From Actinomyces johnsonii (GTDB lineage Bacteria > Actinomycetota > Actinomycetes > Actinomycetales > Actinomycetaceae): 64,000 nucleotides of DNA. The DNA lies in contig NZ_VICB01000004.1 of NCBI RefSeq assembly GCF_006546835.1, positions 310,001-374,000 of the forward strand. The letters are read 5' to 3'. Each line of letters opens with the position of its first letter. The first letter of the stretch is position 1. The position numbers were made by a program, and so were the translations under genes. Shown here one piece after another: positions 1,557 to 17,800 of the stretch. Under the pieces are notes generated by a model that was not told where the DNA came from, ran no database searches, and worked only from the letters and a program-made list of their open reading frames with translations.

Positions 1557-2858
1557 ATGACCGGCCACGCACCGTCACGTTCCTGTTCCCCTCAGTCCCC
1601 CCAGCGACTGGTCCTGCTCGGATCCACCGGTTCGATCGGCACCCAGACCCTTGAGGTCCTCGCCCGCTTAGGTCAGGCTGCCCCTCGGGTGGCCGCCCTC
1701 GCCGCCAGCGGGTCCCGCCTGGAACTGCTTGCCCGGCAGGCTGTCGCCTGGGACGTCCCCGTCCTGGCCGTCACCGGCGGGGGAGAGGACCTCGCCGGCC
1801 GGCTGCGCGATGCCCTGGTGGCCGCGGCCACGGCGGCCGGCCGTCCCGACCCTGTCACCACGATTCTCTTCGGTCCCGATGCCGCAACCACGGCAGTCGA
1901 GGCCGCAGGGCTCGGGCCCGATGACACGGTGGTCAACGGCATCACGGGCTCCGTGGGACTGCTGCCTACACTGGCTGCCCTGCGCAGCGGCGCCCGCCTG
2001 GCCCTGGCCAACAAGGAGTCCCTCGTCGTCGGGGGCGCTCTGGTCCGCCAGTCGCTGACCCGGCCAGGCCAGGTCGTCCCCGTGGACTCCGAGCACTCCG
2101 CCATCGCCCAGGCCCTCGCCAGTGGCCGCCACGAGAAGGGTCTGACCAGTGCGGTCATCAGCGGACGCAGCGAGGTGAGACGGCTAGTCCTGACCGCCTC
2201 AGGCGGCCCCTTCCGCGGCAGGAGTCGCGCGGAGCTCACCGGGATCAGCGCTGCCGCCGCCCTCAACCACCCCACCTGGGACATGGGTCCGGTGGTGACC
2301 ATCAACTCCTCGACCCTCATTAACAAGGGACTCGAGCTCATCGAGGCCCACCTCCTGTTCGACGTGCCGCCCGAGCAGATCGACGTCGTCGTCCACCCCC
2401 AGTCCGTCATCCACTCCATGGTGGAGTTCACCGACGGCGCCACCATCGCCCAGGCCTCCCCGCCCGACATGCGCCTGCCCATCGCCCTGGGACTGACCTG
2501 GCCCCGTCGCCCCGACCTGTCCGGCCTAGTGGCGCCCAACGACTGGCGCGAGCCGATCAGCTGGACCTTCGAGCCGCTGGACTCCGAGGCTTTCCCCGCC
2601 GTCGACCTGGCCCGCGCCGCCGTGGCGGCCTCACCCACCCACCCGGCTGTCCTCAATGCCGCCAACGAGCAGGCCGTCGCCGCCTTCCTGGGCGGCGGGA
2701 TCGAGTGGCTCGACATCGTCGAGATCGACGCCACCGTCCTGAGTGAGCACGAGGGCCTCGCCTCCCCGAGCCTGGACGACGTCCTGGCGGTGGAGACCTG
2801 GGCGCGCACCCGCGCCGACGAGCTCATCGCGGCACGAAACGGAGGAATTCATTCGTGA
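1557..2858 (+). CDS. dxr: 1-deoxy-D-xylulose 5-phosphate reductoisomerase
   Basis: Second enzyme of the MEP isoprenoid pathway, converting DXP to 2-C-methyl-erythritol 4-phosphate with NADPH and a divalent metal in the cytosol. The Rossmann motif GSTGSIGTQ is at residues 22-30. The metal/substrate segments VDSEHSAIAQ, LTASGGPFRGR, HPTWDMGP and INSSTLINKGLE are all intact. Length (433 aa) is slightly above the usual ~390-400 because of a polar N-terminal tail; a start a few codons downstream cannot be excluded. It is directly coupled (4-nt GTGA overlap) to the site-2 protease gene, the standard actinobacterial arrangement leading to ispG. Confidence 0.96.
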   Translation: MTGHAPSRSCSPQSPQRLVLLGSTGSIGTQTLEVLARLGQAAPRVAALAASGSRLELLARQAVAWDVPVLAVTGGGEDLAGRLRDALVAAATAAGRPDPVTTILFGPDAATTAVEAAGLGPDDTVVNGITGSVGLLPTLAALRSGARLALANKESLVVGGALVRQSLTRPGQVVPVDSEHSAIAQALASGRHEKGLTSAVISGRSEVRRLVLTASGGPFRGRSRAELTGISAAAALNHPTWDMGPVVTINSSTLINKGLELIEAHLLFDVPPEQIDVVVHPQSVIHSMVEFTDGATIAQASPPDMRLPIALGLTWPRRPDLSGLVAPNDWREPISWTFEPLDSEAFPAVDLARAAVAASPTHPAVLNAANEQAVAAFLGGGIEWLDIVEIDATVLSEHEGLASPSLDDVLAVETWARTRADELIAARNGGIHS

Positions 2859-4189
2859 GCACCACCCTGGCCTACATCCTGGGCATCGTTATCCTCATCA
2901 TCGGGATCGGTATCTCGGTGGCCCTCCACGAGCTCGGGCACATGATCCCGGCCAAGAAGTTCGGTGTGAAGGTCCCGGAGTACTTCATCGGCTTCGGACC
3001 GAGGATCTGGTCGGTCAAGCGTGGTGAGACCGAGTACGGAGTCAAGGCCGTCTGGCTGGGCGGCTACGTCAAGCTCGTTGGCATGCTGCCGCCGGCCAAA
3101 CCCGGAAAGCCGGACCGGCGCCGCAAGGACGGCAGCCTGGGCATGGTGGGTGAGGCGCGTGCCGAGGCCCTCGAGGAGATCCGGCCCGGCGAGGAGCACC
3201 GCGCCTTCTACACCCTGAGCGTCCCCAAGAAGCTCATCGTCATGGCCGGGGGGATCCTCACCAACCTGGTCCTGGGAATCCTACTTCTGGCGATCGCCAT
3301 CGGCGCGGTCGGTGTCCCCGGGCGCACGACCACGCTGTCGAAGGTGGAGCCCTGCGTCTCATCCAACGTTGATGCGAATGCTCCCTGCCAGGACTCCGAC
3401 CCGGCTGGTCCCGCCGCCGCCGCCGGAATCAAGGTAGGCGACCGGGTCGTCTCCTGGGGCGGGGTGGAGGTCTCCACTTGGGGAGAACTTCAGGCCCGGA
3501 TCGCTGCCGGAGGAACCAACCCCACCCAGGTCGTCATCGAGCGCGATGGCGCCAGGCGCACTGTGAGCGTCACCCCGGTCGAGGCTCAGCGTGTCGTCCT
3601 CGACTCGCAGGGTGCCCCGGTCAAGGACGCCTCCGGCGCTTTGCGCACCCGGGCACGCCCCTATGTCGGCGTCTCTCCTGCCCTGGGAACCATTCCGCAG
3701 AGCCCGGCTAAGATACCAGGCTTCATCGGACAGGCCATCGGCGGCACGGTCAAGGCCATCGCCACCCTCCCGGTGGGGCTCTACCACGCCGTCCAGGCCG
3801 GACTGGGCATGGAGCAGCGCAGCGCCGACAGCGGCGTCGTCGGCCTGGTGGGCATGGGGCGCATGGCCGGGCAAGCCACCAGTGGCGGTGCGACCGGAGG
3901 CGGGGAGGTTCCGCTGTCCATGAGGTTCAGCACGATGCTCATGCTGCTGGGCAGCCTCAACCTGGCACTGTTCGCCTTCAACCTGGTACCCCTACTGCCC
4001 CTCGACGGCGGTCACGTGGCCGGAGCCTGTTGGGAGGGCATCCGGCGCATGATCGCCAAGGCGCAGGGGAAGCCCGATCCGGGACCGGTGGACACGGCCA
4101 AGATGATCCCGGCGGGCCAGGTCGTCTTCGGCCTGCTCATCGTCATGGCCCTGGTCCTGGTATGGGTGGATATCGCCGCCCCGCTGTGA
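2855..4189 (+). CDS. Site-2 family intramembrane zinc metalloprotease (M50, RseP/Rip1 type)
   Basis: Membrane-embedded protease of the family that cleaves anti-sigma factors or other single-pass proteins within the bilayer. The zinc motif HELGH is at residues 25-29 in the first TM helix, and the second metal-ligand motif NLVPLLPLDGGH lies in a C-terminal helix. Between them is a PDZ domain (around AAAGIKVGDRVVSWGG, residues ~190-250). Additional hydrophobic segments lie near residues 125-150 and at the C-terminus. The 444 aa length is normal. The GTG start overlaps the dxr stop (GTGA). Conserved linkage with dxr and ispG matches the Rip1 locus of mycobacteria; its substrates here are unknown. 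Confidence 0.92.
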   Translation: MSTTLAYILGIVILIIGIGISVALHELGHMIPAKKFGVKVPEYFIGFGPRIWSVKRGETEYGVKAVWLGGYVKLVGMLPPAKPGKPDRRRKDGSLGMVGEARAEALEEIRPGEEHRAFYTLSVPKKLIVMAGGILTNLVLGILLLAIAIGAVGVPGRTTTLSKVEPCVSSNVDANAPCQDSDPAGPAAAAGIKVGDRVVSWGGVEVSTWGELQARIAAGGTNPTQVVIERDGARRTVSVTPVEAQRVVLDSQGAPVKDASGALRTRARPYVGVSPALGTIPQSPAKIPGFIGQAIGGTVKAIATLPVGLYHAVQAGLGMEQRSADSGVVGLVGMGRMAGQATSGGATGGGEVPLSMRFSTMLMLLGSLNLALFAFNLVPLLPLDGGHVAGACWEGIRRMIAKAQGKPDPGPVDTAKMIPAGQVVFGLLIVMALVLVWVDIAAPL

Positions 4190-4269
4190 GCCCCATGATG
4201 ACAGGGTGCTCCCACATCGGCGGGAGCGATGCCACACGCCTGCGGTACAGGGCCGGGCTGGGCGGGTGA

Positions 4270-4281
4270 CATACTGGTCGG
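4270..4281 (+). promoter_or_regulatory. Candidate leaderless promoter -10 for ispG
   Basis: Hexamer CATACT (4270-4275) lies exactly 6 nt before the GTG of ispG, so transcription would begin at or next to the start codon. No Shine-Dalgarno sequence is seen before this GTG, supporting a leaderless mRNA. Confidence 0.4.
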
Positions 4282-5463
4282 GTGACTGAAGCGATCGCTC
4301 TTGGCATCCCCACGATGCGTGCCCAGGCCCCGGTTCTGGCGCAGCGCCGACCAACCCGCAAGATCAGGGTCGGCAGCCTCAACGTCGGTGGAGACGCCCC
4401 CATCACGGTGCAGTCGATGACCACCACCAAGACCCACGACATCGGCGCCACACTCCAACAGATCGCCGAGCTGACGGCCGCGGGCTGCGACATCGTCCGC
4501 GTGGCCTGCCCTACTGACAAAGACGCCGAGGCGCTGCCGATCATCGCCAAGCAGTCACGCATTCCCGTCATTGCGGACATCCACTTCAACCCCAAGTACG
4601 TCTTCGCCGCCATTGAAGCAGGCTGCGGCGCCGTGCGCGTCAATCCCGGCAACATCCGCAAGTTCGACGACCAGGTCGCCGACATCTGCAAGGCCGCCTC
4701 CGACGCCGGCGTCTCCCTGCGCATCGGCGTCAACGCCGGAAGCCTCGACAAGCGCCTGCTCAAGAAATATGGCAAGGCAACCCCCGAGGCCCTCGTGGAG
4801 TCCGCCACCTGGGAGGCCGGTCTGTTCGAGGAGAACGACTTCCACGACTTCAAGATATCCGTCAAGCACCACGACGTCGTCACCATGGTGCAGGCCTACC
4901 GGCTCCTGTCCGAAGCCGGCCGCTGGCCCCTCCACCTGGGCGTGACCGAGGCGGGCCCCGCATTCCAGGGCACTATCAAGTCCTGCGCCGCCTTCGGCAC
5001 CCTGCTCGCCGAGGGGATCGGCGACACCATCCGCGTCTCCCTGTCCGCGCCGCCGGTCGAGGAGGTCAAGGTAGGGACCAAGCTCTTGGAGTTCATGGGC
5101 CTGCGAGAGCGCCAGCTCGAGATCGTCTCCTGCCCCTCCTGCGGCCGTGCGCAGGTGGACGTGTGGACCTTGGCCGAGGAGGTCGAGGCCGGGCTCAAGA
5201 AGGTCACCGCGCCGCTGCGCGTGGCCGTCATGGGATGCGTCGTCAACGGTCCCGGTGAGGCCCGCGAGGCGGACCTGGGCTGCGCCTCGGGCAACGGCAA
5301 GGGGCAGATCTTCGTGCGCGGTCAGGTCGTCGAGACCGTCCCCGAGGACCAGGTCGTCGAAACCCTTCTCAAGCACGCAGAGGCCCTAGCAGCCGGGATG
5401 GCCGAGGAACTCGGGGAGGAGGCCCTGGCCGGAACCACCCCCATGGTCTCCGCCGTCGGCTGA
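4282..5463 (+). CDS. ispG: 4-hydroxy-3-methylbut-2-enyl diphosphate synthase (flavodoxin/ferredoxin)
   Basis: Penultimate MEP-pathway enzyme (GcpE), an iron-sulfur protein converting MEcPP to HMBPP. The N-terminal TIM-barrel segment [10 protein letters not shown] and VRVNPGNI are recognisable. The [4Fe-4S] ligands are Cys284 and Cys287 (CPSCGR) and Cys319 (GCVVNGPGE, whose Glu is the fourth ligand). The length of 393 aa is typical of the two-domain bacterial form. The GTG start lacks a ribosome-binding site but sits 6 nt after a -10-like hexamer. Gene order dxr-rip-ispG-GNAT is conserved in actinobacteria. Confidence 0.97.
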
Positions 5464-5511
5464 GGGCCGGCGGGGGCGGGGCCGTCGGGTGCCCGCCTGG
5501 GCCTTAAGGGT

Positions 5512-6501
5512 ATGAGCTTCCTGCGACACCGCGATCACGGGCGCGCCCAGCACGGCGCCGACGGTCTGACACCGGTTCCCTCCGACCAGGTGGCAGGCGT
5601 CATGTCGCTGTGCTCTCTCGACCCGGTCGGCGCCGTGAGCCTGGTCCAGCAGATGCAGCGATGGCCCAGATGGGGGCGCGGTGATGTCGTCGCCGTGGGG
5701 GGCCTGGCTCGTCCCGTCGCGGCCGCCTGGTCAGTTGGCTCCCTCATGCTCTTCGGTCTGGCCGGTCGCCCCGAGCACGGCCTGCGAGCAGCGGACGTCG
5801 GCGAGATCCGGGCGCTCGCCGAGCACGCCGGGCCCCGCCTATCGAGGCGCGGGTCCGTTTCGGGACCGGCCCGGGACGTCGCCGCCGTATGGGGCGGACT
5901 CAGCGAGCAGGGAACGCGCGCCCGCCATGAGCGCTGGCGACAGCCGGTCCTCGCCGCCCCGCGTGCGGGCGGAGGCGTGACGAGTACGCACGTGCGCCGT
6001 CGCCCCTCACTGACCTGGGTGAGCCGGTCGGTCCGCCCCGCCCGACCGGACGAGGCGGGGCTGGTGCTGCCGGCCTCGGTGGACATGTTCAGCGGTGAGC
6101 TCGGCTACGACCCCACTGCTGACGGGCCCGGATACGGTCGCCACGTCAACTGGCTTATCGAGCAGGGGCGCAGCTACATCGTTCTCGACGACGGCGCGGG
6201 TCGGCCGGTCCGGCCCGGCTCACCCCGGGCAGTGGCCTTCAAGGCCGACGTCGGAGCCCTGTGGCGCTCCCCGGCCGGCGGCGTCGCCCAGTTGACCGGC
6301 GTGTGGACGCGCCCCGACCTGCGTGGACAAGGTGTGGGGGCGATCGCCCTGGCCGGTGTGGTGGACGCCGTACGCCGTGACCATGTCGGGGCCGACGGCG
6401 TCGTGAGCCTCTACGTCAATGACTACAACACCCCAGCCCTGGCGCTCTACCGCTCCTTGGGGTTCGAACAGGTGGGCCTGTTCGCCACCGTGCTGCTGTA
6501 A
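5512..6501 (+). CDS. GNAT-family N-acetyltransferase with DUF4081 N-terminal domain
   Basis: A 329-residue protein with a C-terminal GNAT fold: LTGVWTRPDLRGQGVG (around residue 263-278) is the acetyl-CoA pyrophosphate loop (R/Q-x-x-G-x-G), and LYVNDYNTPALALYRSLGF is the typical motif B end. The N-terminal half fits the DUF4081 partner domain found in the mycobacterial homologue next to gcpE (Rv2867c type). The acceptor substrate is unknown. It follows ispG by 48 nt, so it is probably co-transcribed. An AAGGG stretch lies just before the ATG. Confidence 0.85.
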   Translation: MSFLRHRDHGRAQHGADGLTPVPSDQVAGVMSLCSLDPVGAVSLVQQMQRWPRWGRGDVVAVGGLARPVAAAWSVGSLMLFGLAGRPEHGLRAADVGEIRALAEHAGPRLSRRGSVSGPARDVAAVWGGLSEQGTRARHERWRQPVLAAPRAGGGVTSTHVRRRPSLTWVSRSVRPARPDEAGLVLPASVDMFSGELGYDPTADGPGYGRHVNWLIEQGRSYIVLDDGAGRPVRPGSPRAVAFKADVGALWRSPAGGVAQLTGVWTRPDLRGQGVGAIALAGVVDAVRRDHVGADGVVSLYVNDYNTPALALYRSLGFEQVGLFATVLL

Positions 6502-6602: not shown

Positions 6603-6893
6603 GTGCGCAATACGGTCGAAGCCGACTCCGGGAGCACGGAGCGTCAGAATAATATCGAGGTCTGGAATGACCTCGTTTCACCTGCAGACCTGCTCATCTG
6701 TCTCCTGATATCGGTGATATGCATCGTCGCAGCGGTACTTTTCTCCTCCTTTTTCGGAGGGAAGCCGCTGTTCTGGGGACTGGGAGCATCCACTGCAGGT
6801 TTTATCGCCTGCTGCTTCCTCGTGAGCCCCAAGCGAGAGGTCGTCATTGTCGATGAGCCGAGCGCCGGCGCGAGTGAAGGCGGAGATCAGTGA
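6603..6893 (+). CDS. Small two-TM membrane protein, possible minimal TctB-like subunit
   Basis: Predicted 96-residue protein starting at a GTG, with two hydrophobic helices (about residues 29-50 and 56-77) and an acidic C-terminal tail. Its stop overlaps the GTG of the following TctA-like permease by 4 nt, so the two are almost certainly translated together. In tripartite tricarboxylate transporters the small subunit TctB has about four helices and ~150 residues; this would be a strongly reduced version, or an unrelated accessory peptide. Base composition is visibly less GC-rich than neighbouring genes. There is no obvious ribosome-binding site, so the exact start is uncertain. Confidence 0.6.
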   Translation: MRNTVEADSGSTERQNNIEVWNDLVSPADLLICLLISVICIVAAVLFSSFFGGKPLFWGLGASTAGFIACCFLVSPKREVVIVDEPSAGASEGGDQ

Positions 6894-8266
6894 CTGTGAG
6901 CCTTCTTCTCATGATGGTGGCCGCCATTCTGGCGGCCGTGGTCCTCTATACCTTCATCGGTTTCATCCCTGGTACCGACGAGACGGGGGTGCTCGCACCC
7001 GTCACCCTTGCGATCATCCTCGCGGGAGCGCCGCCGCACGTGGTACTCGCTTTCTTTGTCTCCGCTGTTGTCACGCTCAATCTCATGAATGGAATCCCGA
7101 CGGCGCTGGTCGGTCTTCCTGGCGGAGTGATGTCCGCTCCGCTCATGGATCATGCCATGGTGCTGCGCGACAAGGGTCTGGCTTCGGACACGATCCGGAA
7201 GATGGCCGTGGGCTCGGCCATCGGAACCCTCATTTCCATTCCCCTGAGCTTCCTCCTTGCTAGTCTGCTGCTGCCCATGGCCGACTGGATCAAGTCCAAC
7301 TCCGATATCGTTCTGGCTGCCGGTGCCGTGGTTCTGGCCCTGCTCGGGAAGAACCGTATTCTCTCCCTGGTGGCGATTCTTCCTATGGCGCTGCTGTTCC
7401 AGGCGCTTCCGGCGCTTTATCGGGGCGCGGGTATTATCCCGGAGAAGGCCAGTGTCAACACCTCCTTCTTCCTCGGGATCACCGTGGGTCCCATGCTCCT
7501 GACCCTCCTTGAGCTCCTCAACGCTAAGCGCCGGGAGGCGCTGCCGCACGGCAGCCGCACCAAGGCGGAGCTGCTGCGCTCCGGATTCGGCCGGCAGGCG
7601 CTGTGGCCGGGCCGCCTCATCACGAGGTCCGAGGGCTGGTGGAGCGCCGCAATGGCCGCCGCGTCCACCCCGCTGTTCATCCTCAGCCCGGTGGGCCTGA
7701 CTTTCCTGTTGGGGGAGGCCTCCGTGGCCCGTCAGAACGAGGACCGAGTACCTCGCGCACAGCGTGCGGTGACGGTCATGAGCGCCCTGACTCACTCGAC
7801 CTACCTGGCCGGTGTCATCATCCCGCTGGTAGCGCTCGGGGTCCCGATCTCCGGGGTCTCCGCCGGCCCCGCCGGGCCACTTTTCAATGCCGGGTCGGTC
7901 TACACCAAGCAGCACAATCTGCATCACCTACTGGATCTGCCCTGGTTCATCATTACCGTGTCCCTCGGCGCCCTCGTCGCGGTCGCGATCACGTACATCA
8001 TCGCCGTGCGCTGGTCCTCGCAGATCACCTACTTCGTCATGCGTCGCATCCCCCACGAGGCGGTGCTGGCGCTGTTCGTCGCCTTCGTCGTCCTGCTGGC
8101 CTACATCGACGCCGACCAGAAGGCGGGCCTGGCTAACGTCTTCGGGGTCCTGCTCGTCGGGATCGCATGCGGGTCGTTCAACCGCCTGGGCGTCTCCTAC
8201 GGAGTGCAGTTCATGTCCCTCTATGCCGCCCCCGGCATCGTCAAGGCGCTGGCCGCTCTGGCCTGA
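6890..8266 (+). CDS. Tripartite tricarboxylate transporter-type permease (TctA family)
   Basis: A 458-residue, very hydrophobic protein with about 11-12 predicted TM helices. The N-terminal region resembles the TctA signature: GFIPGTDETGVLAPVT near residue 22, followed by GIPTALVGLPGGVMSAPLMDH. TctA is the large membrane subunit of solute-binding-protein-dependent carboxylate importers. No TctC (periplasmic binding protein) gene is present in the window, and the only partner is the 96-aa protein with which it overlaps by 4 nt. Substrate cannot be inferred. An 11-bp hairpin follows the stop. Confidence 0.72.
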   Translation: MTVSLLLMMVAAILAAVVLYTFIGFIPGTDETGVLAPVTLAIILAGAPPHVVLAFFVSAVVTLNLMNGIPTALVGLPGGVMSAPLMDHAMVLRDKGLASDTIRKMAVGSAIGTLISIPLSFLLASLLLPMADWIKSNSDIVLAAGAVVLALLGKNRILSLVAILPMALLFQALPALYRGAGIIPEKASVNTSFFLGITVGPMLLTLLELLNAKRREALPHGSRTKAELLRSGFGRQALWPGRLITRSEGWWSAAMAAASTPLFILSPVGLTFLLGEASVARQNEDRVPRAQRAVTVMSALTHSTYLAGVIIPLVALGVPISGVSAGPAGPLFNAGSVYTKQHNLHHLLDLPWFIITVSLGALVAVAITYIIAVRWSSQITYFVMRRIPHEAVLALFVAFVVLLAYIDADQKAGLANVFGVLLVGIACGSFNRLGVSYGVQFMSLYAAPGIVKALAALA

Positions 8267-8338: not shown

Positions 8339-8496
8339 GGCTCGGCTGCCGAGCCCTGGCCGGCGGCGCCGGCCTCGAGAGTGCTCGAGACATCGGTGGT
8401 GGGGAGATCATCGGGTCCCGATATCTGCACCATATCAATCGATCGAAACATTATGAGGAGGGGTCGATCCCCCTTGACGAGTCCGCCCGTGGGCGG
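8339..8496. repeat. Cluster of short inverted repeats between convergent genes
   Basis: Six further perfect palindromic hairpins follow the terminator: 8339-8355 (GGCTCGG/CCGAGCC), 8358-8374 (GGCCGGC/GCCGGCC), 8374-8389 (CTCGAG/CTCGAG), 8410-8422 (ATCGGG/CCCGAT), 8460-8472 (GGGG/CCCC) and 8483-8496 (CCGCCC/GGGCGG). They fill most of the spacer between the TctA-like gene and fni. The last one abuts the fni stop and may be part of its terminator. No ORF of credible coding potential is present. Confidence 0.5.
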
Positions 8497-9585
8497 TTAA
8501 TGCTCGCGGCGGTGCGCGAGCCCGCCCAGGTCGACGCCGAGCGCACGCGCCTGCTCGGCGGTGCGCCCAGTGACCAGCACGTCGGTACGGCGCAGCTGCG
8601 ACACATCGGGAGCCCCCAGCAGGGTCATCAGCGTGCGCACGTGCTCACTCCAGGTATGCAGCTCTTGCCGCAGCGCCTCGGGGCCCTCTTTGACCAGGGT
8701 TCGCAGGAAGTGCCCGGAGGCCCCGACGGCGCACGCCCCCAGGGCCAGCGACCGCACGACGTCGAGCGGGTTGCGCACACCCCCCGAGGCCAGTACCGGC
8801 AGGTCGACCGGGTCGTCGACCGCCAGCGACTCCAACAGGCACAGCGCCGTCGGCTGCCCCCAGCCAACCAGGTAGGACAGGTCGCGCCGCGGGCGGCGCT
8901 CGTTCTCGATGGCGATGAAGTCCGTGCCGCCCGACCCGGCCACGTCGACGGCCGCGACGCCAGTGTGAGCCAGTGCCTCGATGGTCCGGCGCGAGAGCCC
9001 GAAGCCCACCTCCTTGACAACTACCGGGACGGTCATGGCCGCGGCAATGGCGGAGATCGCCTCGCTCCAACCGGTGAAGTCGCGGTCGCCCTCGGGCATG
9101 ACCATCTCCTGGGCCGCATTGAGGTGGATCTGCAGGGCGTCGGCCTGAAGCATCTCCACGGCCCGCATCGCCTCCTCGGGGCCGACCGTCGGACCGACGT
9201 TGGCCAGAACGAAGGCACCCGGAGCCCGACGACGGATGACACTGAAGCCGTCGACCCGCTCGGGATCGTGCAGGGCGACGTGCTGGGAGCCGCAGGCGAT
9301 CGCAACACCGGCATCGGCAGCCGCCTCGGCCAGGTCGGAGTTGATCGCCGCCGTCGCCCGCGTACCACCGGTCATGGCGTTGATGTAGAAAGGGACTTCC
9401 CAGCGGGAGCCCAGGACGGTGGTGCCGATGTCGACCTGCTCGGCGCTGATGCCCGGCAGGCCGTGGTGGATGAAGGAGACGTCGTCGAAGGCACCCGTAC
9501 GATCCTGACCGTGCAGGCGAATCGCCAAGTCCAAATGCTCGTCCTTGCGGGAGGCCCGTTGCGAGGCGGTGGGCTCATGACTCAT
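8497..9585 (-). CDS. fni: Type 2 isopentenyl-diphosphate delta-isomerase
   Basis: FMN- and NADPH-dependent enzyme that interconverts isopentenyl and dimethylallyl diphosphate, closing the lower mevalonate pathway. Recognised from RKDEHLDLAI near residue 13, INAMTGGT (~69-76), ACGSQHVAL, the NVGP segment, the HLNAAQEMVMPEGD stretch, VVVKEVGFG, and the FMN phosphate site VLASGGVRNPLD. The 362 aa length is normal. Its ATG overlaps the pmk stop by 4 nt. It is last in the mvk-mvaD-pmk-fni operon; in the known streptomycete clusters HMG-CoA reductase and synthase follow at this place, but here a convergent permease gene does. Confidence 0.95.
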   Translation of the reverse strand: MSHEPTASQRASRKDEHLDLAIRLHGQDRTGAFDDVSFIHHGLPGISAEQVDIGTTVLGSRWEVPFYINAMTGGTRATAAINSDLAEAAADAGVAIACGSQHVALHDPERVDGFSVIRRRAPGAFVLANVGPTVGPEEAMRAVEMLQADALQIHLNAAQEMVMPEGDRDFTGWSEAISAIAAAMTVPVVVKEVGFGLSRRTIEALAHTGVAAVDVAGSGGTDFIAIENERRPRRDLSYLVGWGQPTALCLLESLAVDDPVDLPVLASGGVRNPLDVVRSLALGACAVGASGHFLRTLVKEGPEALRQELHTWSEHVRTLMTLLGAPDVSQLRRTDVLVTGRTAEQARALGVDLGGLAHRREH

Positions 9586-10760
9586 GAGGCGACCTTAACG
9601 GGGGAGTCAGTGGGAGAATCGGCGGGGGAGTCGGCGGACGGGCCCCGGCTGTGGACCGATAGTTCCAGTGGTCGGACACCGGCCGCCTCCCAGGCGGTGC
9701 GCATGGCGGCAATATTCGTGGCCGGTGGGCACAGGGCGATCCCGCAGTCCCCGCCGCCGGCCCCCGAGCTCTTGGCGGCGGCCCCGTGCCCGCGAGCGAT
9801 CTCGACCAGGCGCGTCAGCTCGGCAGTCTCAATGACCCGGCCGCTAATTCGGCTGAGCCCGGCCAGAAGAATCCGATTCTGCTCGATGCCGGCCATGACC
9901 TGGCGAGCGTCGTCGTCCTCGATGGCGGCGATTAAGGAAGCCAGGCAGTCCTGACTGTCTTGCAAGAAGGCGGCGTAGGAGCCGCCGGAGTCCTGGGAGC
10001 CCGTCTGGACGCCGGCGACCAGGGCGGGCGTGGAGGCCGGAGCCCCGGTCCACCCCACCTGAAGCCGTAAGGAGGGAGGCGTCAAGCGGCGGATGCTCAG
10101 GCCGGGCCAGTCGGCTTTCACCAGGCCGCTCACGCAGCCGCCGGCCCCCGCCCGCTGCCGGGCCTGGCGCAGCCACGAGCGGTCGGGTGAGGTGTAGGCC
10201 ACCCAGCCGGTCACGGCGCTGGCAGCGATGTCGCCCCCCGAGCCGATCGGCTCGATCGCATCACTGGCCAGCATCGCCAGCTTGTACACGCTCAGGTCGT
10301 CGAGGCCCAGCCCGTAGAGTCCCGCAACGGCTCGCACCGTCGCCACGGTCACCGCCGAGGACGAGCCCAGGCCCAGCTTGCGCCCGCTGGCGTCGTCCAG
10401 CTCGCTGGAGATGTCCAGGTCGAAGGCCCGCAGCCGGTTGCCGCCCTGGGCCACCAGCGCCTCGACGACGCGGATCGCCGAGATCACGTAGTCGTCATCC
10501 TCTCCGACCGCCTCGGCTAGGCCGTCCTGCGGGCGACGGCGCCAGGGTCGGGAGCCGGTGGCGTACAGCACCGAGCGGATCGTTCCCGCACGCTCGTCGG
10601 CGGGGGAGCAGGTCGAGGCGCGAGGCGTGAGACGGATCGTGATGAATCGGTCGACGGCGACCAGGACCGCTCGGTGACCGGGTTCGACGACGGCGTACTC
10701 ACCGGCGATGTAGAGCTTGCCCGGCGCCCTGCACACCACGCCGTCGGCGTCCGGGGTCAT
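9582..10760 (-). CDS. Phosphomevalonate kinase
   Basis: GHMP-superfamily kinase phosphorylating mevalonate 5-phosphate to the diphosphate. The N-terminal APGKLYIAGEYAVVEPG (~12-28) is typical of bacterial phosphomevalonate kinases. The ATP-binding glycine-rich loop is KLGLGSSSAVTVATVRA, and the C-terminal GHMP motif is KSSGAGGGDCGIAL. The 392 aa length fits the family. The C-terminus has a short repetitive run with SPADSPTDSP. Both ends overlap neighbours by 4 nt (mvaD upstream, fni downstream), implying coupled translation and stoichiometric expression. Confidence 0.93.
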   Translation of the reverse strand: MTPDADGVVCRAPGKLYIAGEYAVVEPGHRAVLVAVDRFITIRLTPRASTCSPADERAGTIRSVLYATGSRPWRRRPQDGLAEAVGEDDDYVISAIRVVEALVAQGGNRLRAFDLDISSELDDASGRKLGLGSSSAVTVATVRAVAGLYGLGLDDLSVYKLAMLASDAIEPIGSGGDIAASAVTGWVAYTSPDRSWLRQARQRAGAGGCVSGLVKADWPGLSIRRLTPPSLRLQVGWTGAPASTPALVAGVQTGSQDSGGSYAAFLQDSQDCLASLIAAIEDDDARQVMAGIEQNRILLAGLSRISGRVIETAELTRLVEIARGHGAAAKSSGAGGGDCGIALCPPATNIAAMRTAWEAAGVRPLELSVHSRGPSADSPADSPTDSPVKVAS

Positions 10761-11782
10761 GGGCCGTCCTCGATGCGCGCCCCACCGCCGGGGCGCCTCA
10801 CCGAGACGGCGGCTGCGGGAAGCCGGTCCCGCAGCGCGGCGGCGACCTCCTCGGCGCGGGCGCCCTCGGTGAGGACCTTGACGTTGGGGCCGGCGTCGAT
10901 CGTCGCCCAGGCGGGCAGGCCCTCCTGGCGCATGGCGCGGATCCCGTGCAGCGCCGCAACGGTCTGCGGCAGCCAGTAGATGATGCCCGGGCGGGCCGCC
11001 ATCATCGTGGCGTGCATGCCCAGGGCGTTGCCCTCGACAACCTCCCCGAGCCGCTCCAGGTCGCCCGCCCGGACCGCCTCCAGAGCCACCTGAAGGTCCT
11101 TCCCACTGGCCTCGACCCAGGCGGGGAAAAGGGGGGAGGTACTCATCGTGGCCCGCATGCCCCGGGTCGAGCTGATGGACTTGTCACTCTTCGAGAGCAC
11201 GACGACGACCATCGCCAGGTCCATCTCGCAGGCGACCGGCTCGGCGTAGGAGGAGGCGTCGTCGTGGCCCGCGTTCCACCGGACCAGCCCGCCGAAGATG
11301 GAGCGGGTCGCCGAGCCCGACCCGCGTCTGGCCAGCCGGGAAAGCTCCCGGTCGTCGAGGTCCATGCCCGCTGCGCGTGAGGCGGCCGCCGCAAGCGCCG
11401 CGAAACCCGCGGCCGAGCTCGCCAGTCCGGCCGCCAGGGGCACCGAGGCCCGGGAGGTGACGGTCGCCGCTGCCGTGATCCCCGAACGGGAACGCACCAG
11501 GTCGAGGAAACGGCTCACCCGCGCCAGCTCCGCGCCGCTGGAGGAGGAGCCGTTGATCGTCACCGAATCCGCGGCGCCGTCCCCACCGTCGAAGGAGACC
11601 GTTGTCGTCGTCCGGGTGCCTCCGAGGGTAAGGGACAGGCTCGAGGTGGCCGGAATGGCCTGCACCTCGTCGACTTTTCCCCAGTACTTGATGAGTGCGA
11701 TGTTGGTGTTCGCGCTGGCCGTCGCAGTCGGGATTGCGGCAGGGGAGGATCCGGCGGCGGCTTCAGGGGGTACGGCGCTCAC
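10757..11782 (-). CDS. mvaD: Diphosphomevalonate decarboxylase
   Basis: Converts mevalonate 5-diphosphate to isopentenyl diphosphate with ATP, phosphate and CO2 release. Family hallmarks are NTNIALIKYWGK near the N-terminus, PATSSLSLTL, the GHMP loop PLAAGLASSAAGFAALAAA, and the catalytic-Asp segment ATIDAGPNVKVL. The start was chosen as GTG at 11782 because it makes a GTGA overlap with the mvk stop, exactly like the other two junctions of this operon; an in-frame ATG at 11818 would add 12 residues inside mvk. Predicted length is 341 aa, normal for the family. Confidence 0.93.
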   Translation of the reverse strand: MSAVPPEAAAGSSPAAIPTATASANTNIALIKYWGKVDEVQAIPATSSLSLTLGGTRTTTTVSFDGGDGAADSVTINGSSSSGAELARVSRFLDLVRSRSGITAAATVTSRASVPLAAGLASSAAGFAALAAAASRAAGMDLDDRELSRLARRGSGSATRSIFGGLVRWNAGHDDASSYAEPVACEMDLAMVVVVLSKSDKSISSTRGMRATMSTSPLFPAWVEASGKDLQVALEAVRAGDLERLGEVVEGNALGMHATMMAARPGIIYWLPQTVAALHGIRAMRQEGLPAWATIDAGPNVKVLTEGARAEEVAAALRDRLPAAAVSVRRPGGGARIEDGP

Positions 11783-12741
11783 TCGTTCACCTCGCTGATA
11801 CGCATCCGGTAGTTCCAAGTTGCCGGCGCCCCCGCCCGTTCCAGAGCGGCGCGCACCCGGCGCGCGGCCGGCTCGCCGGTCACCAGGGCGATGACGCAGC
11901 CGCCGAGCCCCCCGCCGGTGAGCTTGGCGCCCAGTGCCCCGGCGGCGCGGGCGGCCTCGGCGAGATCATCGAGGACCGGCAGGCTCAGGCTGAGCTCGGC
12001 CAGGACCGTGTGCGCCTCATCCATGGCGGCTCCGAGGGCGGGGGCGTCGGCCTGGTCCAGCGCCGTGATCGCGTTCTGGGTGAGTGCCCCCAGGCGGTTG
12101 ATGCGCGGACCGATGTTGTCCGGATCGTTCTCGTAGCGCTGGCGCAGCCCGCCGACGGCCTCCCGGGTGGAGCCGTGGACGCCGGAGTCGGCGATGATCA
12201 GGGAGGCGTTGCCCATGCGCTGGCTCAGGGGGCGCATCTGCCCGCCCTGGAACCGGATGGGGCACGGGGAGCAGGTGGCGGCGGCGTCGAGCCCGGAGGG
12301 CTTGCCGTGCGCGATCTGCTCGGCCATCTGCGTCAGTGCGAACAGCTCATCGGCGTCGGCCCGGCGTCCGCAGGAGTCCAGGACAGCGCGAATGATCGCC
12401 CCGGCCGCTGCAGCCGATGAGCCGAGCCCGCGCTCGTGGGGGAAGTCGCTCACGGTGGTGATCTCGAAGGCCTGGTCCAGGCACCCGGAGAACTCACGGG
12501 CCACCTCGAAGGCCCGGGCCACACTGGCGAACCGGGCCCCGGACCGTTCCAGGGCTCCCGAGTAGTCCAGGCTGCGCAACATGGAGGGGCCCGGAACCGG
12601 GCTCGCCGTGGCTCGCATCCGCAGGTCCTGCAACGGTACGGCGACGGCGGGGTGCCCGTAGACCACCGAGTGCTCGCCCAGGAGAATGGCCTTAGCCCAC
12701 GTCTGGCCGTGTCCCTCACGGATGGAGGAGTGCCTGTCCAT
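11779..12741 (-). CDS. mvk: Mevalonate kinase
   Basis: First gene of the lower mevalonate operon, phosphorylating mevalonate at O-5. From the ATG at 12741 the protein is 320 aa. It contains AKAILLGEHSVVYGHPAVAVPL (~residues 16-37; the GEH motif is diagnostic), the GHMP ATP loop ERGLGSSAAAAGAI, a conserved KPSGLDAA segment, and the C-terminal KLTGGGLGGCVIAL loop. The ATG at 12741 is preceded by an AAGGA ribosome-binding site about 5 nt away; the 95 extra codons upstream in frame are low-complexity and unlikely to be translated. It is transcribed divergently from proS. Confidence 0.94.
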   Translation of the reverse strand: MDRHSSIREGHGQTWAKAILLGEHSVVYGHPAVAVPLQDLRMRATASPVPGPSMLRSLDYSGALERSGARFASVARAFEVAREFSGCLDQAFEITTVSDFPHERGLGSSAAAAGAIIRAVLDSCGRRADADELFALTQMAEQIAHGKPSGLDAAATCSPCPIRFQGGQMRPLSQRMGNASLIIADSGVHGSTREAVGGLRQRYENDPDNIGPRINRLGALTQNAITALDQADAPALGAAMDEAHTVLAELSLSLPVLDDLAEAARAAGALGAKLTGGGLGGCVIALVTGEPAARRVRAALERAGAPATWNYRMRISEVNE

Positions 12742-12961
12742 ATGCTTCCTTGCCTGTGGCCCGCACACGGGGGAGCGCGTGGAGCGGGTCGAGTTCAGGG
12801 ATGAGAGGGCCGATGAACCCTCGATGGGATCGAGCGTATCGGGCGCTTCTCCGGGGTCGCAAGTCCCACCTGACCAGCCAGGGGAAGGTTCTGGAGCCCC
12901 GTGGGCGCCAGCGGGGGGTGCCGCCCCGTTTCCGTGATTTCGCGCAGCCCGGCGGGCTCCA

Positions 12962-12997
12962 TTGGGGCGGCGGCGCCGGAGCCCGTAGGATCGCCCC
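12962..12997 (+). promoter_or_regulatory. Leaderless promoter of proS
   Basis: TTGGGG (12962-12967) and TAGGAT (12986-12991) are separated by 18 nt, and the proS GTG begins 6 nt after the -10. There is no ribosome-binding site, so the message is predicted to start at or next to its GTG. The rest of the 256-nt mvk-proS divergent spacer shows no further gene. Confidence 0.55.
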
Positions 12998-14830
12998 GTG
13001 CTGCACAGACTCTCCACCTCCTTCATCCGAACCCTGCGCGAGGACCCGGCCGACGCCGAGGTCGCCAGCCACCGGCTGCTCGTGCGCGCCTGCTACATCC
13101 GCCGGGCCGCCCCCGGCGTGTACACCTGGTTGCCGCTGGGCCTGAGGACGCTGCGCAAGATCGAGGACATCGTGCGCCAGGGGATGGACGCCATGGGCGG
13201 CCAGGAGGTCCACTTCCCGGCCCTTCTGCCCGCTGAGCCCTACCAGGCCACCGGGCGCTGGGACGACTACGGTCCCACCCTGTTCAAGCTCCACGACCGC
13301 AAGGACGGGGACTACCTGCTGGCCCCTACCCACGAGGAGATGTTCACCCTCGCGGTCAAGGACCTCTACTCCTCCTACAAGGATCTGCCGGCCATCGTCT
13401 ACCAGATCCAGACCAAGTACCGCGACGAGGCCCGCCCCCGCGCCGGCATCATCCGCGGCCGCGAGTTCGTCATGAAGGACTCCTACTCCTTCGATATCGA
13501 CGACGCCGGCCTGGCTGCCGCCTACCAGGCCCACCGCGACGCCTACGAGCGGATCTTCGCCCGCCTGGGTCTGGACTACGTCATCGTCAACGCCATGGCC
13601 GGCGCCATGGGCGGCTCGCACTCCGAGGAGTTCCTCTACCCCTGTGAGATCGGCGAGGACACCTTCGTGCGCTCCTCAGGCGGCTACGCGGCCAACGCCG
13701 AGGCCGTCACCACCGTGGTCCCCGATGCGGTGGACGCCTCCGGCATCGGCCCGGCCCGCGTCGTCGACACCCCCGACACGCCCACCATCGACTCGCTGGT
13801 GGACCTGTGCAACAAGGCCTACCCGCGTTCAGACGGACGGGCCTGGACGGCCGCCGACACGCTCAAGAACGTCGTCGTCACGCTCATCCACCCCGGGGGG
13901 GATCGCGAGCTGCTGGTCGTCGGTGTGCCCGGGGACCGCGACGTCGACATGAAGCGTCTGGAGGCCGCCGTCGCCCCTGCCGAGGTCGAGATGGCCGGCG
14001 ACACCGACTTCGAGACCCACCCCGAGCTCGTGCGCGGCTACATCGGCCCCACCGCCATCGGCCCCAACTCGCCGCTGCGCCGCGTCGAGAGGCTCGACGA
14101 CGGAACCGAGGTCCTCACCGGCTCTGTGCGCTACCTGGTCGACCCCAGGATCGTGGAGGGGACCAGCTGGGTCACCGGCGCCAACACCGACAAGAAGCAC
14201 GTCCTCGACCTGGTCATGGGGCGCGACTTCACCGCCGACGGCACCATCGAGGCTGCCGAGGTCCGCGAGGGCGACCCTGCCCCCGATGGCTCCGGCCCCC
14301 TCCACCTGGCCCGCGGCATCGAGATCGGACACATCTTCGAGCTGGGACGCAAGTACTCCCAGGCCCTGGGGCTGACCGTCCTGGATGAGAACGGCAAGGC
14401 CCGCGTGGTCACCATGGGCTCCTACGGCATCGGCGTCAGCCGCGTCATGGCGGCTCTGGCCGAGGCCAACCACGATGAGAAGGGTCTGACCTGGCCCGTC
14501 CAGATCGCCCCCTACCACGTGCAGGTCTTGGCCACCGGCAAGGACCAGGCCGTCTTCGACGTCGCCGAGCGGATCGCCTCGGCCCTGGACTCCGACGGCG
14601 TCGAGGTCCTCTACGACGACCGCCGCAAGGTCTCCGCCGGGGTGAAATTCGCCGACGCCGAGCTCCTCGGCCTGCCCTACACGGTCGTCGTCGGTCGGGA
14701 CCTGTCCAGGGAGGGGACCGTGGAAATCCGCGACCGCCGCACCGGTGAGCGACGCTCCGTGCCCGCCGATGCCGCCGCGACCGAGCTCAGCGCCACGGTC
14801 CGCACCGCCCTGGAGGCCGCCCGACACTGA
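12998..14830 (+). CDS. proS: Prolyl-tRNA synthetase
   Basis: Class II aminoacyl-tRNA synthetase charging tRNA-Pro. It is the bacterial type with an editing domain inserted between motifs 2 and 3: 610 aa long, with motif 1 around [13 protein letters not shown] (~45-57), motif 2 around [21 protein letters not shown] (~140-160), the insertion domain at about residues 220-410, motif 3 around [14 protein letters not shown] (~478-491), and the anticodon-binding domain at the C-terminus. GTG start with leaderless promoter. The stop is only 15 nt from the end of the convergent helicase pseudogene. Confidence 0.97.
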
Positions 14831-14845
14831 ACGGCACGGGGACGC

Positions 14846-17800
14846 TCAGTCCTCCAGCCAGCGTTTGGTGCGGCGCAGACCGACTCGTCCAGCGGGGCCG
14901 CCGAGGCCGCGGCAGGACATGAGTGCTGCTGTGTCATCAGCGTCGGCAACCAGGTGAAGCCGGCACGGACCCACTCGTCTGGACCAGGAGTGAACGAAGG
15001 CCTCCATATCGGCTCGCGAACGGGCCAGGGCCGTTGGAACCGCAAGGTGAACACTGTCATCGTGGTTCCATGCCCCCAGCGTCAGCAGCTCTCCCAGGAG
15101 ACGCCGCAGCCTGTTCAGAGGCCGTTCGGCCGTGCCCTGCGCCAGGGTTGCGGTAGCGACCTCGAGGATGAAACGAGGACGGCGCACCGGGGAGCTCAGG
15201 AGCTCCTTGAGGATATCGGCGAACTGAGCGCTCTGATGAGTCTCCACCCCGTCCAGGCCGATAAGCACGCTCGGACGCGATCCGCCGGGCGAATCGGTGG
15301 GACTCTCGCGAACCACGAGGTTGGGGCGGGGCCCGTCAGCGGGATCTCCACCTGCGGCAAGGTCGTATCGCGAGAGGACAACATCGAGAACGGCGCGAGC
15401 AGCAGCGCTCCAGAAGGCCGCGGGCGATCCCCGGCTCAGCAGGGCCGGTGCACTTGTGATCTCGACCGCCTCTAGTGCGCGGCCACGGCCGCGTCGCGAC
15501 ACCCGGTGTGCTGTGGGTGCTTGAGCGAGCCATCGCCGCGACTCGACCTGGCGGTCGAGGCTGGCCAGGGTGGCGGAGTTGAGGGCGTCGATATCCTCTG
15601 GGGCGGCGCCGTCATCCAGTTCCTCGAGAAGGCGGCGCTGGACCGGTGACAGCATGGCATCGAGCCCCGTCTCGACGACAGGCGCGCCAATAGGTCCGTT
15701 GGAGACCGCGGCCGGGTCGCTCGTCGGGTCATCGATCTGCACCAGTGACCATAGGTGCTCGGCCTTGCGACGCAGTCGGTTCAGGTCCGGGTCAGAGCGC
15801 AGGCGGGGATGACCTGGCAGGAGGCAGGTAACGGACCAGTTGTGAGCGACCTTGTCGACCCAGTCAGGGTCCAAACGCATTGTGGACCGCGTAGCTGCTG
15901 CGTTGAGGCCGAGGTCGTCGCCGCCGTGAGATCGATGAGTGTATTGACTGCCGGGCAGTCCCAGCCTTCGCCGAGCAGGCCACGAGTGCCCACCACGAGC
16001 CGTATCCGTCCGGTCGCGACCAGCTTACTGACGGCCAGGACGAGTCCGGCGCTGCCAACCCCCTGCCCGGTGACCGAAAGCATCCAGCCGTCATCGGTGG
16101 CTGGGAGCGCGAGACCGGTGCTCCGACGTAGTTGATCCAGCAGCGAGGTCTCCCCGCTGGCAAGGCTCAGGCGGGAGCTGGTCAGTAGCACCGGGTGCAA
16201 TGAGCGCAGGCGCGCATCACTGAGCAGCATGCTCATACACCGTACTGCGCCTCCCGCAGAATTGGGGCGCGAGGAGGCGACCGGGAGGTCGAGCGCCCGA
16301 TGGGGAGCGGATCGCTCGGCCGCATCCGTGACGACGACGGCCCGCAAGCGCTCACCGATGGAGTCGAGTTCGTGGCGCAGAATGTCGATAACCGCCGTGT
16401 CCTTGGCTCTCGAGGCGGCCGTGATGACGTCTACCGGGGAGCGTCCCATTCGGATCCCGGAGTCGGTCAGGTGCAGGCCGAAGCCTTTCAGCAGCTCCCG
16501 GGCGGACTCCCAGTCCCGTCGACGCTCCGGCGTCGTCAAGAGCCGGTCGAGAGCGTATTGGCTCAGGAGCCTGAGTTCATCGTCAAGGTCGAGCGGCTCG
16601 AGCTCGGGCAGGAAGGGGACGACCCGGACGCTCAAAGACGTGGCCCGGTAACTGCCTGTCCTGCGCAGCAGTGCACTTGCGGAGGCGGCCAGCACAGGGT
16701 CGGCGTCGAAACCCGCCACGATCCGATGTATCAGTTTGGTCTCATCAGGTGGTTCTCGTGGTCCTACCGGTGCCGAGTCCGGGCCGTCACTCTCTCCCCC
16801 GAGGCTAACGGGGAGCTCCGACTCTCTCAGGGCATCAGATGCAGCGGCCTGAGAAGGAGGGGCGACGACATGGAGCAGGTAGTCGATGCCATCGGAGCTC
16901 AGCAGCAGTTCAGCAACACGGTGACGGAGCTCCCGACCGGCGGTGACCAGGAACTGCGTCTCCTCCGGGGAGGGCAGCGTGAACCAGGCCAGTTGACGAC
17001 AAGGGGCAAGGTGACCGGCGCGGATGACGGCCGGAACTGGAACCTCGGCGTCGACGTCGCCCAGGAGCGCACGGTATCGGCGGGTGGATCGGTCCTCGCC
17101 CGAAGGCTCGGTAGCGGTGAGGCCAATGAGCGTGGGCGCCAGTCCCGCCTTCCTCAGACGCCGCGTGAGGAAGTGGACGACGACAGCCCAGTGCGCCCGC
17201 AGATGGTGGCACTCGTCGAGGATCACGGTAGCGATACCGGCCTCTACCAGTGCATCTATGCGCGCCCGAGCGTTAAGTGACAGAAGCGAGGCAATGGCTG
17301 CGTCGTCTAGCTGGTCGATCCGGCGTCGGATGGCGGCAGCGCGCGAACGGATGCCGCGTGCGTAGGTCGTGGGGTTCTGGGCTTCGAGGCGCGTCAGCCA
17401 GGTTCGCGCGCTCGCGGGGCTCTTGCCGTCGGCGGTGAGCTCGCTCACCCACCGGGAGCGGGCGGCTTCGTTCCATGGGGTCGCGTCGTCGACGACGGAC
17501 AGGGACTGATAGGTCAGGACCGTGAGGTCAAGAAGTTCGCGATCCTGGTTCTCAGGAGCGTTGGGCGTTTGATGGCCGCCGGTCAAGGACTCGTCCTCGT
17601 TCCGTGCGAAGAACTCACTCGCCTGCTGACTCCACTGTGCCCGGATCACGGTTGTGGGCGTCAGGACGAGCGCTCTGCGACCGTTGCGTACGGCCAGTTC
17701 CAATCCCATGAGGGTCTTACCTGCTCCCGGCGGTGCAAGCAGGTGAAGCGTGGAGCCGTCGTCAGGGTGAAGCCGGTCAAGGAGGTTCTGCTGGTAGTCG

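Follow-up and report, generated by a model that had tools for sequence, protein, structure and literature searches.

We analysed a window of 64,000 nucleotides from Actinomyces johnsonii (G000:C4:310001-374000, in a genome of 3.35 Mb and 42 contigs rated 100% complete), in which four genes of the lower mevalonate pathway lie beside a gene for a TctA-family permease. We propose, with a probability of roughly 0.8, that the locus forms a module for mevalonate salvage, with the permease as a natural importer of mevalonate; the module would be facultative in the genome of the window and probably obligate in G198, a relative from another genus. The permease and an adjacent small membrane protein would bring mevalonate into the cell, where mevalonate kinase, phosphomevalonate kinase, diphosphomevalonate decarboxylase and type 2 isopentenyl-diphosphate isomerase would convert it to isopentenyl diphosphate (IPP) and dimethylallyl diphosphate (DMAPP). 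In the window's genome salvage would supplement a complete methylerythritol phosphate (MEP) pathway, hence its facultative character there, while in G198 it would be the only isoprenoid source.

Linkage of the permease to the lower mevalonate genes

The permease was found in 27 of 213 Actinomycetaceae genomes (22 of 200 in a first sample) and, within Actinomyces, in 24 of 49. All 27 carry the four lower mevalonate genes, the closest at most 2,417 bp away. Outside the family, permeases of 57–61% identity occur in three genomes of genus g70, which belongs to another family, again with the lower genes alongside, which brings the linkage to 30 of 30 genomes. A homolog of the small membrane open reading frame (ORF) adjoins TctA in the 27 Actinomycetaceae and three g70 loci. 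Five genomes (G063, G199, G416, G481 and G499, from three genera other than Actinomyces) have the small ORF, TctA, mvk, mvaD, pmk and fni on one strand in that order, with 26–135 bases separating the permease and mvk matches; in the remaining 25 genomes permease and fni converge.

The presence of the permease is also associated with the absence of the upper pathway, that is, of 3-hydroxy-3-methylglutaryl-CoA (HMG-CoA) synthase (HMGS) and reductase (HMGR). We detected mvaD in 36 of 200 family genomes, and mapping added five Actinomyces for a total of 41 (205 of the 213 genomes were tested or mapped, leaving out seven Actinomyces and one other). Upper genes occur in 18 of these 41, namely in four genomes with the permease (G011, G025, G026 and G036) and in all 14 without it, each of the 14 having both synthase and reductase. 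Conversely, every mvaD genome without detected upper genes (23 of 23) carries the permease (Fisher p = 9e-8, with relatedness ignored). A preliminary description of the window had offered three explanations for the missing upper genes: that both pathways operate, that the upper genes moved elsewhere, or that mevalonate is salvaged from the surroundings. The linkage of the permease makes the last the best supported.

In the window, the predicted module comprises the following elements:

6603-6893, plus strand: small membrane ORF of at most 97 residues, with two hydrophobic stretches judged by eye, placed where a TctB subunit would be expected
6890-8266, plus strand: TctA-family permease of 458 residues, predicted mevalonate importer (PF01970, E = 1.7e-25, residues 11-430)
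8455-8474, minus strand: terminator-like hairpin between the two convergent units (consensus scan only)
8497-9585, minus strand: fni, type 2 isopentenyl-diphosphate isomerase (TIGR02151, 374 bits, cut-off 281)
9582-10760, minus strand: pmk, phosphomevalonate kinase (TIGR01220, 373 bits, cut-off 166)
10757-11782, minus strand: mvaD, diphosphomevalonate decarboxylase (GTG 11782 taken as the likelier start, with the open frame reaching 11818; TIGR01240, 299 bits, cut-off 171)
11779-12741, minus strand: mvk, mevalonate kinase, first gene of the putative salvage operon (TIGR00549, 224 bits, cut-off 163, scored on the longer ORF 11779-13026)

All four lower enzymes exceed the NCBIfam equivalog cut-offs, each in the correct subfamily, and their ORFs are intact. 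ORFs, strands and cut-offs thus bear out the preliminary description, which had placed mvk-mvaD-pmk-fni at 8497-12741 with neither HMG-CoA synthase nor reductase there and a convergent permease after fni. Two of the three 4-nt overlaps that it reported, between fni and pmk (9582-9585) and between pmk and mvaD (10757-10760), are present; the third, between mvaD and mvk (GTGA, 11779-11782), exists only if mvaD starts at GTG 11782, and becomes 40 nt with the TTG start at 11818. A 4-nt overlap (GTGA) also joins the stop of the small ORF to the start of the permease. The earlier description of the spacer as filled with hairpins finds only partial support, in two overlapping terminator-like matches on the minus strand at 8455-8474 (0.1 expected from shuffles). 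The genome belongs to the Actinomyces oris/naeslundii group; among named relatives, the closest mvaD genes are those of A. oris, A. naeslundii and Actinomyces sp. ZJ308 (86–95% identity).

The permease, earlier taken for a gene that had replaced the upper pathway genes, is likely the mevalonate importer and part of the module. As in TctABC transporters, the PF01970 match spans nearly the whole protein and a small membrane partner is adjacent. The locus differs from those transporters in that the partner has no Pfam family, TctB included, and in that no TctC-like binding protein is among the window genes scanned (none was sought genome-wide), nor in four annotated plasmid loci of distant homologs. 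The permease itself has no NCBIfam model and no relative in the PDB at E 0.1.

Among 11 oris-group genomes, the median dN/dS was 0.060 for the permease, 0.050 for ispG, 0.128 for proS, 0.184 for the small ORF, 0.198 for mvk, 0.237 for fni, 0.250 for mvaD and 0.364 for pmk. Lower genes and permease are uninterrupted in all mapped permease genomes, and breakage of the lower genes was rejected as every flagged stop lies at most 12 codons from a match end. These data bear on the idea that the locus is a decaying remnant of a full pathway, which lost its upper genes and whose remaining genes are vanishing because MEP suffices. A complete MEP pathway would permit such decay, and no gene measured has a higher dN/dS than pmk; yet all values are well below 1, the permease is constrained like ispG, the stops are confined to match ends, the window locus holds no upper-gene remnant, and the state without upper genes is common to 20 Actinomyces species. 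We consider decay very unlikely.

A few loci have unusual gene structures. In L079 (G032), pmk and fni apparently form one open frame of 774 codons at about 8411-10588, a possible natural fusion. Two-piece matches, possibly frameshifts or sequencing errors, affect proS in L100 (G039), the acetyltransferase gene in L105 (G021) and fni in L099 (G160).

De novo routes in the window's genome and in G198

No match to HMG-CoA synthase was found anywhere in the window's genome. HMG-CoA reductase gave a single partial match, at G000:C13:23559-23846; its 19.5 bits fall short of the 27-bit cut-off, and the ORF that holds it has no Pfam or NCBIfam family. The same searches detected both enzymes in 18 relatives, four of them within Actinomyces, and controls matched in known genomes. 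A complete mevalonate pathway, with synthase and reductase both encoded, is therefore not detected in this genome, and the notion that the upper genes moved elsewhere was rejected on the same grounds, the genome being rated 100% complete. Dual de novo synthesis by a synthase and a reductase too divergent for the searches could appeal to the 19.5-bit match; with no family assigned to that ORF and both enzymes readily found in congeners, we regard it as extremely improbable. As for a degradative HMGR or HMG-CoA lyase, no reductase exceeds the cut-off genome-wide and no lyase is among the window genes scanned, the lyase not having been searched for genome-wide.

The MEP set, by contrast with the upper mevalonate genes, is complete, which at the gene level supports the option that both pathways are present. 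The genes dxr and ispG, correctly noted before as neighbours, lie 5.6 kb and 3.0 kb from fni, respectively, and ispH, dxs, ispE, ispF and ispD are all present elsewhere in the genome, ispD being the weakest match (38.9 bits). The ispH call was confirmed a second way, by family search; dxs, ispD, ispE and ispF were called with E. coli proteins as queries, across 18 genomes. The surroundings of the module in the window are:

1557-2858, plus strand: dxr, MEP pathway (PF02670, PF08436, PF13288), context outside the module
2855-4189, plus strand: rseP
4282-5463, plus strand: ispG, MEP pathway (PF04551, E = 9e-141), context outside the module
5512-6501, plus strand: acetyltransferase gene
12998-14830, plus strand: proS
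14846-15880, minus strand: ORF with no Pfam family above cut-off, flanked by proS and a helicase-like gene

IspG and IspH are iron–sulphur proteins. The lower mevalonate route needs ATP and no iron–sulphur enzyme; salvage could thus be of benefit under oxidative stress, or economise on carbon. Complete mevalonate pathways are found in oral streptococci, which, speculatively, might be a source of mevalonate.

A case of probable dependence on salvage is G198 (genus g9, 10 contigs, 100% complete). The ispH gene is missing in 14 of 66 genomes searched; 13 of the 14 have synthase and reductase, and G198 has neither. Genome-wide, G198 gave no match to dxr, ispG, ispH, HMGR, HMGS, ispE or ispF, whereas ispE and ispF matched in all 13 ispH-bearing genomes of the same search set. 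What matches dxs in G198 is a transketolase-like half. The gene resembling ispD, near ribitol-5-phosphate cytidylyltransferase, fails to reach the ispD cut-off. G198 retains uppS-like and prenyl synthase genes and therefore should need IPP, and its four lower enzymes exceed their cut-offs. Since it lacks the upper mevalonate genes as well as dxr, ispG and ispH, imported mevalonate is the only visible isoprenoid route. Its congeners G056, G088 and G111, without the permease, have dxr, ispG and ispH, and G199 has MEP together with the salvage operon. Genus g9 thus shows three states: MEP only, MEP with salvage, and salvage only.

Distant homologs and locus history

Sampling 396 genomes of the order gave permeases 32–38% identical to that of the window in 20 further genomes, 19 of them in genus g41 and the other being G548. 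At 18 of these 20 loci the neighbours of the permease are an HMGR of degradative type, HMG-CoA lyase and a small membrane protein (HMGR-lyase-TctB-TctA), usually with a gene for a PucR-like regulator; this is the gene set expected for mevalonate breakdown. A tblastn search of 72,556 plasmid records with the window permease gave six matches, in Roseomonas mucosa, R. gilardii, Lichenicola cladoniae, Rhizobium etli, Burkholderia cenocepacia and B. arboris. HMGR adjoins the permease in all six and the lyase lies within 5 kb in four, with no baseline of ordinary TctA neighbourhoods for comparison. Even at E 10 with a g41 homolog as query, only the same six records were recovered; ordinary TctA was not reached, which argues for a distant subfamily. 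With the permease beside lower genes here and beside HMGR elsewhere, mevalonate is the sole thing that both kinds of neighbourhood share. At one of the distant loci, L157 (G405; 1882-6396), some 2.5 kb of other sequence interrupts the gene for the PucR-like regulator.

These clusters also bear on the direction of transport, which sequence cannot tell. Export of mevalonate or a related acid is conceivable in the four Actinomyces species that keep the permease beside complete upper genes, but the 23 family genomes with the permease and no detected upper genes have no visible maker of mevalonate, and the homologs in catabolic-type clusters must import their substrate. We give export very little credence.

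Several points weigh against mevalonate import, and some would favour a permease for another carboxylate, citrate-like or a branched hydroxy acid, with its mevalonate-gene neighbourhood merely inherited. TctA (PF01970) is named for tricarboxylates, and this subfamily has no solved structure or NCBIfam model. In Actinomyces the permease lies convergent to the enzymes, on the opposite strand, and hence is not cotranscribed with them. Two of the 20 distant genomes, G480 and G425, have a permease homolog with neither HMGR nor lyase beside it and no HMGR match genome-wide. Furthermore, four Actinomyces species pair the permease with upper genes, so that import is not strictly needed there; a synthase-like gene lies elsewhere in the g70 genomes, although no reductase match accompanies it; and pmk is only moderately constrained (dN/dS 0.36). 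What the analysis establishes is gene content, intactness, linkage, co-occurrence and purifying selection; mevalonate as the substrate and the inward direction are inferred from genomic context, as is, from the gene content, the action of the enzymes in the cell. Another carboxylate would nevertheless leave unexplained the 30 of 30 linkage, which holds in convergent and same-strand layouts alike, and the location of distant homologs beside an unrelated mevalonate-consuming enzyme pair at 18 of 20 loci and in six of six plasmid matches, and would leave G198 with no visible mevalonate source. We judge it unlikely and retain mevalonate import.

Some related genes were seen outside these arrangements. 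In L148 (G480) and L151 (G425), the catabolic-type permease adjoins DUF445 and aminotransferase genes. Synthase-like genes (43–45%) at G416:C1:1104292, G481:C6:6101 and G499:C14:42560 are distant from the salvage operon and have no reductase match. Others, at G006:C7:36030-37127 and G042:C2:658794-659891, are 34% identical to the Actinomyces enzyme and occur without reductase or permease; another role is likely.

In the four Actinomyces genomes with upper genes, G011, G025, G026 and G036, the segment from the acetyltransferase gene to the small ORF contains an HMGR-thiolase unit as well as the gene for a divergent HMG-CoA synthase. The unit is a single ORF in G011 and G025, with thiolase and HMG-CoA reductase fused (L070 5251-8157, L071 4619-7354); enterococcal MvaE likewise fuses the two. 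These four genomes lack ispH, dxr, ispG, ispD and ispF, and weak ispE-like matches of 38–48 bits remain. In a tree of rseP and the acetyltransferase gene they form one group (support 89) inside the salvage-type species. The earlier view that the permease replaced upper genes after fni is therefore doubtful in this lineage, all the more as the upper genes of these four sit elsewhere in the locus, in an arrangement unlike mvk-mvaD-pmk-fni-HMGR-HMGS. The data fit, without proving, a history that began with salvage, de novo mevalonate synthesis being acquired afterwards and MEP lost.

The lower genes and permease of G198 group with those of G026 and G036 (support 99–100), a pattern suggesting that the locus was transferred or that its history is shared. 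All trees were built quickly, with midpoint rooting and no support measure beyond SH-aLRT, and species without the permease are absent from them; the lower-pathway tree was built on mvk, mvaD and pmk and gave long-branch warnings. In it, window-type lower genes form a branch separate from those of the classic cluster. At L078 (G030), mvk-mvaD-pmk are 63–76% identical to the window, compared with 87–97% for the permease and flanks, and group with G016/G013, which suggests that part of the operon was replaced by recombination.

Relation to known systems and significance

The classic actinobacterial cluster, mvk-mvaD-pmk-fni-HMGR-HMGS, is known in this form from Streptomyces. It was seen in 14 family genomes, and the likeness of gene order recognised in the preliminary description extends to all of them: the same four lower enzymes stand in the same order. 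The window locus differs in having no HMGR or HMGS after fni and in carrying the TctA permease pair, which is missing in the 14 classic genomes. A second point of comparison is mevalonate catabolism, which in Pseudomonas mevalonii proceeds through the degradative HMGR and HMG-CoA lyase of mvaAB. Catabolic clusters likewise use outside mevalonate and carry a distant permease homolog (33–36% identity); they break mevalonate down, whereas the window module, at a locus without HMGR or lyase, would phosphorylate it.

A broader scheme, whose truth we consider evenly balanced, would extend the salvage module to its distant homologs. A distinct TctA subfamily would be the natural bacterial mevalonate importer and would serve two opposite ends: Actinomycetaceae and one further family of the order would salvage mevalonate into isoprenoids, and soil-type actinobacteria and proteobacteria would break it down. 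Salvage would have permitted the loss of every de novo IPP route in at least one free genome, the obligate scavenger G198, and would have preceded the regain of upper genes with MEP loss in the four Actinomyces species. Mevalonate in dental plaque would on this view be a public good, leaked for instance by neighbours that have the full pathway.

In the open-library literature we found no paper that describes a mevalonate pathway reduced to its lower part in Actinomyces, and none that connects a TctA protein with mevalonate. Related situations are described in the excerpts available to us. The endosymbiont Blattabacterium resembles the present case in its missing upper pathway and postulated mevalonate import, and differs in that an insect host supplies the compound and that the excerpt names no transporter (PMC3819652). 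Engineered importers (JEN1 Y180C/G and MCT1 F360C) share the import of mevalonate and differ as mutants of unrelated monocarboxylate carriers; the same excerpt says that bacterial mevalonate import systems exist and calls the mammalian MCT1 mutant the only previously known importer (PMC12405511). Passages elsewhere mention an incomplete mevalonate pathway in other corynebacteria (PMC13244258), an easing of reductase-depletion effects by outside mevalonate in Borrelia (PMC13370337), and gene loss in Actinomycetaceae of human cavities (PMC5404923).

If the salvage module is confirmed, a natural gene family for mevalonate uptake would be named, where the 2025 paper, in the part available, knows no wild-type importer (PMC12405511), and the permease would be a ready-made part for mevalonate feeding of engineered laboratory strains. 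Salvage would also explain why half a mevalonate pathway is kept beside MEP in many Actinomyces, and outside mevalonate is predicted to bypass MEP inhibitors such as fosmidomycin in these species. At least one bacterium would be wholly dependent on others for its isoprenoid precursors.

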